Below, one piece after another: positions 13,272 through 15,486 of a stretch of 64,000 bases of DNA. Numbering within the stretch: the stretch's first letter is position 1; each line of letters begins with the position of its first letter. Source of the stretch: Deltaproteobacteria bacterium. GTDB lineage: Bacteria; Desulfobacterota_D; UBA1144; Nemesobacterales; UBA2774. Under the pieces are notes generated by a model, which saw nothing but the letters and a program-made list of their open reading frames with translations, had not been told where the DNA came from and did not search any database. Location: the NCBI GenBank assembly GCA_040223695.1, contig JAVKFU010000009.1:62001-126000 (forward strand), read 5' to 3'. Position numbers and translations under genes: made by a program.

Positions 13272-13344
13272 GCCCGGATAGCTCAGTCGGTAGAGCAGAG
13301 GACTGAAAATCCTCGTGTCGGCGGTTCAATTCCGTCTCCGGGCA
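13272..13344 (+). tRNA. tRNA-Phe (GAA)
   Basis: A complete 73-nt cloverleaf. Acceptor GCCCGGA pairs with TCCGGGC, the discriminator is A, anticodon stem GAGGA/TCCTC encloses CTGAAAA with anticodon GAA, and the T arm is GGCGG-TTCAATT-CCGTC. CCA is not encoded. Its 3' half is duplicated exactly at 15442-15486, so it is the target of an insertion. Confidence 0.97.
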
Positions 13345-13345
13345 T
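13301..13345 (+). repeat. Left 45-bp direct repeat (att-like), within tRNA-Phe
   Basis: Runs from the anticodon stem of tRNA-Phe to one base past its end and is identical to 15442-15486. It contains the anticodon and T arms, the usual crossover area of tRNA-targeting integrases. Confidence 0.88.
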
Positions 13346-13575
13346 AATTCTAATAAAGTTCATCCAGTCTTAAGTTTTTCTCCGGACGTCATAGCATTGT
13401 AAACAATATAGTTATATCGAAAGGGCGTGGATTAGTATTACATGTCGGAACGGGATCGATACTCAGATCTTCCCCAAAAACCGTTACATCGGTCGGCCAT
13501 GTCTGTCGCAGGACTTTTATAAAGCAGAGCTATAGTTTTTGTTGCCAAGAGCTGTGAAAGCCTATTTATAGCTTG

Positions 13576-13604
13576 TTGACTGCCACGGAAAACTGCACTA
13601 CATT
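13576..13604 (+). promoter_or_regulatory. Promoter of the arylsulfotransferase-like gene
   Basis: TTGACT (13576-13581), 17-bp spacer, TACATT (13599-13604), about 100 bp before the start codon. The rest of 13346-13702 is AT-rich and shows no gene. Confidence 0.5.
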
Positions 13605-13702
13605 TGGATAAATATTCTTATAAACAGCAGTTCAGGCGATTTAATTCTTTTGACTAATTGTTCTATTTAAAAACAAAGAAATCAAAAAGGAGTAATCACT
13701 GG

Positions 13703-15088
13703 ATGGGATTCTATCAACTTAGCACATCTAATAATATCTTTGGCGGCTTGAGGTTCCCAGAGTGGATATATCTGACGTTTATCCTGGTCCTAATTGTCGG
13801 CGGCTGCTCCTCCGATGGAAATAACGGAGAGAGTTTTATATTGTACACGCCAAGCATATCGACTGAGACGTATTTATTCGACGGTTCGTACAATGTTGCT
13901 TATCAGTGGTCCAGCGAGCTCTTCGCCGGGCAGTCGGCCTTTCTCCAGGAGGACGGCAGTATAATACGCGCTGGATCGATCAACAATATCGTGCCCGAGA
14001 ATCGCTTCGTAAAGGCTTACAGTGATGCGAACAACGCCACCTTTCAGATTGGAGGCATTGTCGAGCGCATCTCAAAAGACGGTGATGTTGTCTGGACGTT
14101 CGAATACTTCAGCGACGACTTCGCGCCTCATCATGTTGCCACAGTGATACCTAATGGAAATCTCCTTATGCCTGTGTGGAGGTACTACACCGAAGAGGAG
14201 TCCATAGCGCTAGGACGCAACCCGCAACGCCTTACCTCCGGTGGATTATGGATTGATTCCATCATAGAGGTACGACCGACGGGAAGTAGTGGAGGAGAGA
14301 TAGTTTGGGAATGGAACGCTGCCGATCACCTCATTCAGGACTTCGATCCGACAAAGGCCAACTTCGGGAATTTAGAAGAAAATCTCGGGCGGATCGACAT
14401 CAACTACGGAAGTGGCTTAACCATTCCAGAGGATTTCATGCACGTGAACTCTGCCTTCTATATTGAAGAGCTCGATCAGATTGTTTTCACATCATTCCAC
14501 TACAGCGAACTCTGGGTAATCGATCACTCTACCACCACTCAGGAGGCAGCCGGGAGCACGGGCGGACGTTATGGCCGGGGCGGAGAGCTCTTGTATCGAT
14601 GGGGCAACCCATGGGTTTATGGCCGGGATGATGCCGATGTTTTCCTCCTATCCGCGGTGCACGATCCTAAATGGATCGCTGAGGATCGCCAATTCATTAT
14701 GTACGACAACAATATCTCAGACCCAACAAGAGGACTTGAGGGTGGTAGCAGCATGGTCGTGAAAATCGAGCCTCCAATTTTGCCCGATGGCAGTTACGAG
14801 CTGGAAACAGACGGCATATACGGACCTGCCAGGCCTGTTCTGGCGGCCGACCTAGGTGTGCAGGCGACCTCTGTGGGAACGGCCCAGCGTCTACTTGACG
14901 GGCGCACACTCTCCTGTGACTGCCCGAACAGTCTGGCAATCTGGTTGGATGCGGATGGTACAGTCACCGAAACCGAGGACCTCTTCGAAGCAGCCATGGT
15001 AGATTCTGATAACGAGCAAGTGTTTCGACTGGTGGGCTACCCGAAAGACTACGAGGGGGTACGGTCCCTCCAAAACTCAGACGAATAA
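13703..15088 (+). CDS. Arylsulfotransferase-family (ASST-like) lipoprotein
   Basis: A 461 aa predicted lipoprotein; the hydrophobic N-terminus ends in the lipobox LIVGGC. The mature part resembles the six-bladed propeller of the arylsulfotransferase (Arylsulfotran_2-like) family, with blade motifs around HHVATVIPNGNLLM, DFMHVNSAFY and VHDPKWIAEDRQFIMYDNN. Known members transfer sulfate between phenols using a catalytic histidine; which histidine would serve here is not certain. ATG 13703 has aaggag 10 bases upstream; an in-frame TTG at 13658 lacks one. It is the only gene between the tRNA-Phe repeats. Confidence 0.72.
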   Translation: MGFYQLSTSNNIFGGLRFPEWIYLTFILVLIVGGCSSDGNNGESFILYTPSISTETYLFDGSYNVAYQWSSELFAGQSAFLQEDGSIIRAGSINNIVPENRFVKAYSDANNATFQIGGIVERISKDGDVVWTFEYFSDDFAPHHVATVIPNGNLLMPVWRYYTEEESIALGRNPQRLTSGGLWIDSIIEVRPTGSSGGEIVWEWNAADHLIQDFDPTKANFGNLEENLGRIDINYGSGLTIPEDFMHVNSAFYIEELDQIVFTSFHYSELWVIDHSTTTQEAAGSTGGRYGRGGELLYRWGNPWVYGRDDADVFLLSAVHDPKWIAEDRQFIMYDNNISDPTRGLEGGSSMVVKIEPPILPDGSYELETDGIYGPARPVLAADLGVQATSVGTAQRLLDGRTLSCDCPNSLAIWLDADGTVTETEDLFEAAMVDSDNEQVFRLVGYPKDYEGVRSLQNSDE

Positions 15089-15371
15089 TGTGAGCATCAG
15101 AGGGTCTGAGTGTTGGGTGGCTGAGCCCCATAAAGCATCTCTACAGGAACTAAGGAGAGGTGGCTTTGACCTTAATTTTCGTTTTATAGTTTTTGGGTGG
15201 GCACAGTAATTCCCTATGGTGGTCGGTTATAAATCCAAATTAGACAAGAGTTAGTATATTGTTTAAGGACGTGGAGTATCAAAGTAGAAGAATGGATGTC
15301 TAAGAATAATCTAAGAACCAACCATAATTAACCCTTTCCGTTGTACCCCGTATAACATATATAACAAATAG

Positions 15372-15394
15372 AAACCCCTGAAAAAGGGTTTTTT
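15372..15394 (+). terminator. Rho-independent terminator inside the tRNA-Phe insertion
   Basis: AAACCC (15372-15377), 8-nt loop, GGGTTT (15386-15391) running into TTTTTT. It lies about 280 bp after the arylsulfotransferase-like gene. The stretch 15089-15371 shows no gene. Confidence 0.75.
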
Positions 15395-15441
15395 CCCATT
15401 TTATAAATAGTATCAATACCTTACCCGAATATACGAAAACC

Positions 15442-15486
15442 GACTGAAAATCCTCGTGTCGGCGGTTCAATTCCGTCTCCGGGCAT
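15442..15486 (+). repeat. Right 45-bp direct repeat, orphan tRNA-Phe 3' half
   Basis: Exact copy of 13301-13345 without the 5' half of the tRNA, so it cannot be a functional tRNA. It marks the right boundary of the insertion. Confidence 0.88.

Follow-up and report, generated by a model that had tools for sequence, protein, structure and literature searches.

A probable decayed, integrase-less island carrying an arylsulfotransferase-family gene at tRNA-Phe in a Deltaproteobacteria bacterium

The 64,000-nucleotide stretch of DNA analyzed in this study (the window) contained a 2.1-kb segment between two copies of the 3' half of tRNA-Phe, which is probably a decayed, integrase-less, CIME-like cargo remnant of an integrative element targeting tRNA-Phe. 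The segment is part of an insertion between conserved flanks and has an exact core repeat and a right arm of fixed geometry, and a cognate integrase is encoded elsewhere in the genome (G000; a 3.03-Mb draft in 23 contigs). Coordinates are given in Table 1. Site-specific integration at a tRNA gene, as proposed in the original prediction, was strongly supported by empty sites in relatives, the shared right-end architecture, and the cognate integrase.

Table 1. Features of the tRNA-Phe locus in the window.
Feature	Position	Strand	Basis or remark
Conserved left flank, BBP2 porin	11673..13010	+	
tRNA-Phe(gaa), intact; 3' part = attL	13271..13345	+	ARAGORN
First copy of the 45-bp direct repeat, spanning anticodon stem to 3' end	13301..13345	+	exact match
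Integrase-less cargo segment, 2,096 bp	13346..15441	.	absent from relatives
Possible decayed left arm	13389..13421	+	gapped alignment; 41/1000 shuffles as good
Promoter-like TTGACT-17-TACATT	13576..13604	+	not above chance versus shuffles
ASST-family (PF05935) putative lipoprotein, 461 aa	13703..15088	+	Pfam match
Right arm (11-bp repeat pair, TCTAAGAATAATCTAAGAA), 143 bp ahead of attR	15299..15317	+	
Terminator-like hairpin	15372..15391	.	not above chance versus shuffles
Second copy of the 45-bp direct repeat, displaced 3' half of the tRNA = attR	15442..15486	+	exact match
Second foreign segment, likely second decayed element	15487..18068	.	no distal tRNA copy found
orf154, secreted protein of unknown family, segment 2	15800..16264	+	
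Glutamate-cysteine ligase (GCS2; TIGR01436-like), segment 2	16443..17813	-	
Conserved right flank, xre-like regulator	18159..18572	+	directly after tRNA-Phe in empty-site relatives

The two 45-bp copies were identical, as had been noticed earlier, and the 3' 30 bases of the repeat occurred twice in the window versus not once in 100 shuffles. No further copy of the 45-bp repeat was found in the whole genome, except for a weak match to another tRNA, and the 44-bp core had no match in IMG/VR. In relatives, the gene order was amt, BBP2 porin, tRNA-Phe, xre, a 253-aa protein, and a lipoprotein. The comparison suggested with the original prediction revealed empty sites in seven of these relatives (G001, G009, G010, G011, G013, G018, and G021), where a single tRNA-Phe was separated from xre by approximately 130-250 bp without a second repeat; the 2.1-kb segment is therefore an insertion. 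The same single-tRNA-Phe sites ruled out both an ancestral arrangement and an array of tandem tRNAs.

The tRNA-Phe-to-xre gap was 4.8 kb in G000, and similarity to relatives restarted only at position ~18069 rather than at the second repeat, indicating that the insertion extends past this repeat and comprises about 4.7 kb of foreign DNA. The description of a 2.1-kb insertion with a single gene thus holds between the repeats, but the whole insertion reaches to ~18068 and includes the second segment, which is likewise found in G000 alone. Its gene content consisted of ASST, orf154, and glutamate-cysteine ligase only, and transfer genes were absent. The reported absence of a recombinase was borne out across 13346-18068, where neither an integrase nor an integrase remnant or pseudogene was found. 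In a search for a third tRNA-Phe copy before xre, 11 of 200 shuffles scored at least as well as the best alignment, and a search for relatives of the left 355 bp of the segment gave only short matches at chance level.

The sole sizeable gene between the repeats encoded an ASST-family protein that scored 33.3 bits against the Pfam Arylsulfotrans profile (curated cut-off 24.2; positions 92-266 of 374) and had a lipobox-like N-terminus, in agreement with the earlier annotation as a putative arylsulfotransferase-like lipoprotein. No match was found among PDB sequences at E<=1, including any solved arylsulfotransferase, and no relatives were found in GTDB contigs or IMG/VR or, for ASST, in the 57 other genomes of the phylum set (58 in all). 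As for the promoter and terminator assigned to this gene, both sites exist, but such sites were not more frequent than in shuffles. The glutamate-cysteine ligase of the second segment was of the plant/proteobacterial type TIGR01436, with a score slightly under the cut-off, and was absent from other family members, one marginal 30% match aside. This gene possibly represents acquired glutathione synthesis.

A diagnostic feature that had been missed in the original prediction was the paired 11-bp repeat ahead of attR. This pattern had seven matches each in G000 and G002, and the reversed pattern had none in either genome. Right arms began 141-145 bp ahead of the tRNA half at tRNA-Phe (G000, G002, G005, G006, and G016), tRNA-Arg(cct) (G000 and G002), and tRNA-Arg(tct) (twice in G000, and in G002). 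Left arms began 49-60 bp past the tRNA 3' end, the distance of 60 bp at tRNA-Arg(cct) of G000 being obtained only when an 88-bp repeat extension is counted; at one tandem junction in G000:C15, the left arm lay at 73 bp. The flanking consensus differed between left and right arms, and the right end of the ASST segment was of the right-hand type and aligned along its length with the corresponding ends of islands that carry an integrase. In IMG/VR, the arm motif plus its right extension matched three times, approximately the chance level.

A left arm was not found in 13346-13660 by the weight matrix. Gapped alignment produced the candidate decayed arm in Table 1 and, past the second repeat, a weaker second candidate that was matched by 77 of 1000 shuffles. 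These two coincide with the two 'TCATAG' stretches (13375-13394 and 15528-15548) that had been described as related, for which the alignment was marginal (8 of 500 shuffles equally good). If the decayed arms are real, the two segments would be tandem members of one element family, each starting with a left end that has decayed.

Intact tyrosine integrases were encoded directly after the left arm at tRNA-Arg(tct) in G000, tRNA-Arg(cct) in G002, and tRNA-Arg(tcg) in G022. These proteins were 64-66% identical, and their N-terminal regions were almost invariant. The G000 member (G000:C7:58929-59990), which answers the earlier proposal to seek an integrase elsewhere in the genome, lies on another contig than the window and retains the catalytic R, HxxR, H, and Y. 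Since sister integrases (43-47% identity) had a different 11-bp arm, TTTCTAACC, and the tRNA-Asn integrase of G000 (30%) had TTGGCTACAG arms at both island ends, the arm sequence tracks the integrase clade in three separate groups, which places the ASST segment with the clade of the three intact integrases. Additionally, tRNA-Phe, tRNA-Arg(cct), and tRNA-Arg(tct) all matched the anticodon stem-loop GGAYTNNNAATCC, as did 6 of 44 listed tRNAs in total. The sole GTDB match for the clade, titled Desulfobacterota bacterium AH_259_B03_O07, came from G022, which belongs to the same order as the window organism according to kinship labels, and no match for the clade was found in IMG/VR. A divergent tyrosine recombinase of ~285-300 aa was also present in most family members; its frame in G000 was broken by TAA (G000:C17:4837-5358, L059).

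A scan reaching up to 19 kb downstream of each G000 tRNA gene identified two further integrase-less elements. The 4.4-kb element at tRNA-Arg(cct) (L128:13567-18058, G000:C18) had a repeat matching at 45 of 46 positions, both arms, no integrase, and a cargo of a glycosyltransferase and a GH130 phosphorylase. Its repeat continued 88 bp beyond the tRNA (~134 bp in total) and terminated in a second tRNA tail, TCTCGGGGACGC. The 2.36-kb element at tRNA-Gly(ccc) (L133:153-2633, G000:C19) had a repeat of 42/44 and carried caspase-like and cytochrome P460-like proteins. A different right-arm pair, AGGTGTCCAATAAGGTGTC, was observed in this element without a left arm, and its caspase-like protein was secreted. 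The glycosyltransferase/GH130 pair was present in eight relatives in varying orientation to the tRNA, with tRNA-Phe (G002), tRNA-Ala(ggc) (G003, G006, G010, and G012), and tRNA-Pro(cgg) (G028) as neighbors; in G026, tRNA-Arg(cct) lay ~3 kb off, and the short contig of G007 showed no tRNA. The location of this pair beside four tRNA types suggests that cargo is re-packaged between sites. Tandem large islands were also found on G000:C15, where a right arm, a tRNA-Arg(tct) half, and a left arm followed one another (L216:7111-7390, L217:9887) and the next right arm and core came ~42.8 kb on; the corresponding tRNA gene is on another contig (C7).

The tRNA-Phe gene is an insertion hotspot. Second copies of its 3' half were also found in G002, G005, G006, and G016, and other inserts in G003, G007, and G008 carried, for example, multihaem cytochrome, metal-efflux-type, and choloylglycine hydrolase family genes. 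Within the tRNA-Phe island of G002 (L035:11903-12359), a half-decayed right arm preceded the 3' part of a tRNA-Ser(tga), after which came an intact right arm and a tRNA-Phe half; attachment sites belonging to different tRNAs are thus nested or arranged in tandem. In G005 (L038:5002-5340), a decayed left arm preceded an N-terminal fragment of an integrase (42-47% identity) ~2.8 kb beyond the tRNA-Phe half, an integrase caught mid-decay. On the upstream side of the tRNA, an additional 2.8-3.1 kb separated the porin from tRNA-Phe in G001 and G009 (L046:3127-5963, L047:5952-9081).

We infer the following order of events for the ASST segment, including the decay of its left arm and its present immobility. 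An integrase of the clade now at tRNA-Arg(tct) in G000, or a lost relative, would have occupied pairs of 11-bp arm repeats flanking the core and, at a point near the anticodon loop, recombined tRNA-Phe with an attP carrying a tRNA-Phe 3' half, pushing the original 3' half to 15442. The right arm would have been kept at 15299. Loss or decay would have affected both the left arm and its neighbor in intact relatives, the integrase gene; because the integrase starts within ~60 bp of the left arm, one loss could have removed both. A second such element (orf154 and glutamate-cysteine ligase) would have been present in tandem and have since lost the distal core. Accretion could still move the ASST segment, should an element with an integrase enter the same tRNA.

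The original prediction had left open a choice between a cargo element moved in trans and a remnant. We favor the remnant for the ASST copy because its left arm is unrecognizable and the adjoining segment has no distal repeat. Two observations count against this reading: the segment contains no integrase pseudogene, and the 100% identity of the core repeat points to a function that is recent or still maintained and not to decay long ago. The same exact repeats, together with a right arm at proper spacing, would fit a live non-autonomous cassette excised and inserted in trans by the tRNA-Arg(tct) integrase, in the style of MITEs and transposases. This alternative, which we consider unlikely, also draws on the one intact integrase of the clade in the genome with its catalytic residues, the anticodon stem-loop common to the three tRNAs, the two-armed but integrase-less sister at tRNA-Arg(cct), and the occurrence of one two-gene cargo at Arg, Phe, Ala, and Pro tRNAs across genomes. 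However, the unrecognizable left arm speaks against it, as does the result that the clade integrase was not found at E<=1e-40 in the arm-bearing G005, G006, and G008, some of these genomes being incomplete. Trans mobilization of the ASST segment is a possibility; it may also operate in the family and is more plausible for intact two-armed, integrase-less cassettes of the same clade, such as that of the glycosyltransferase/GH130 pair.

The missing left arm could also mean that the segment is a chimera, in which the left end derives from a later element of another system at the tRNA, the right end is of the older CAAAGAATA type, and the interior was deleted. The tRNA-Phe elements of G006 and G016 likewise have a right arm but no left arm near the tRNA, a pattern possibly due to a different element next to the tRNA and not to decay, and tandem right arm-core-left arm junctions occur elsewhere (G000:C15 and G026). 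Nevertheless, no alternative paired repeat was found in the left 300 bp and the left stretch has no convincing relative, so that a chimera seems improbable. It is even harder to credit that a local duplication or a misassembly, and not site-specific recombination, produced the repeat: the draft state of the genome leaves room for such an error, but the flanks are syntenic with relatives, G002 has an independent identical architecture, and the arm-to-core geometry is conserved.

The decayed remnant that we prefer is an object of a known and ordinary kind, although its surroundings are unusually informative. CIMEs of streptococcal ICE/IME loci are integrase-less, att-flanked remnants of 1.2-13 kb that carry cargo, often form tandems at the 3' end of a tRNA or another gene, and are very common (PMC5704250, PMC7563491). 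Like them, the ASST segment retains attL and attR, has lost integration and transfer genes, carries cargo only, and lies at a tRNA 3' end, probably in tandem. It differs in its phylum, in that no ICE or IME parent was identified here and the parent is known only by integrase arms, and in that shared arm sites link it to a named integrase clade. The tRNA islands listed by Islander share the tRNA gene, the displaced 3' fragment in the right orientation, and the anticodon-centered crossover, but contain an integrase, which this segment does not, and Islander discards integrase-less candidates by design (PMC4383910). Tycheposons, as described in PMC10872708, are likewise tRNA-bounded cargo carriers in environmental bacteria, but are characterized by a tyrosine recombinase, which is absent from the segment. 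According to passages of the same paper, the additive island fGI-2 of 'Ca. Methylopumilus' has recurring tRNA 3'-end repeats bounding 1-63 genes; its repeat is shorter (20 bp, tRNA-Lys), and these passages mention neither arm sites nor an integrase assignment for it. CALIN arrays and MITEs (PMC11389934) are also non-autonomous units that a distant recombinase can move in trans, a functional analogy only, since attC sites and an integron integrase are absent here and the core is a tRNA half.

New here are the assignment of the arms to an integrase and the swapping of cargo. Standard island finders drop integrase-less, tRNA-flanked segments. Such segments were recovered here through a short arm motif with fixed spacing, which also links them to the integrase clade that moved them. 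Because the arm sequence tracks the clade, the movers of orphan islands in uncultured bacteria could be assigned in this way, and the suggested re-packaging of cargo between tRNA sites provides a testable claim on metabolic gene exchange among these genomes. More tentatively, the clade might maintain a pool of integrase-less tRNA cassettes that bear the arm sites of one integrase, travel in trans from cell to cell and from locus to locus, and have their cargo re-packaged behind different tRNA cores, with the ASST segment as a damaged member. If true, such a pool would be a counterpart of MITEs or integron cassettes that depends on a tyrosine integrase and carries metabolic genes.
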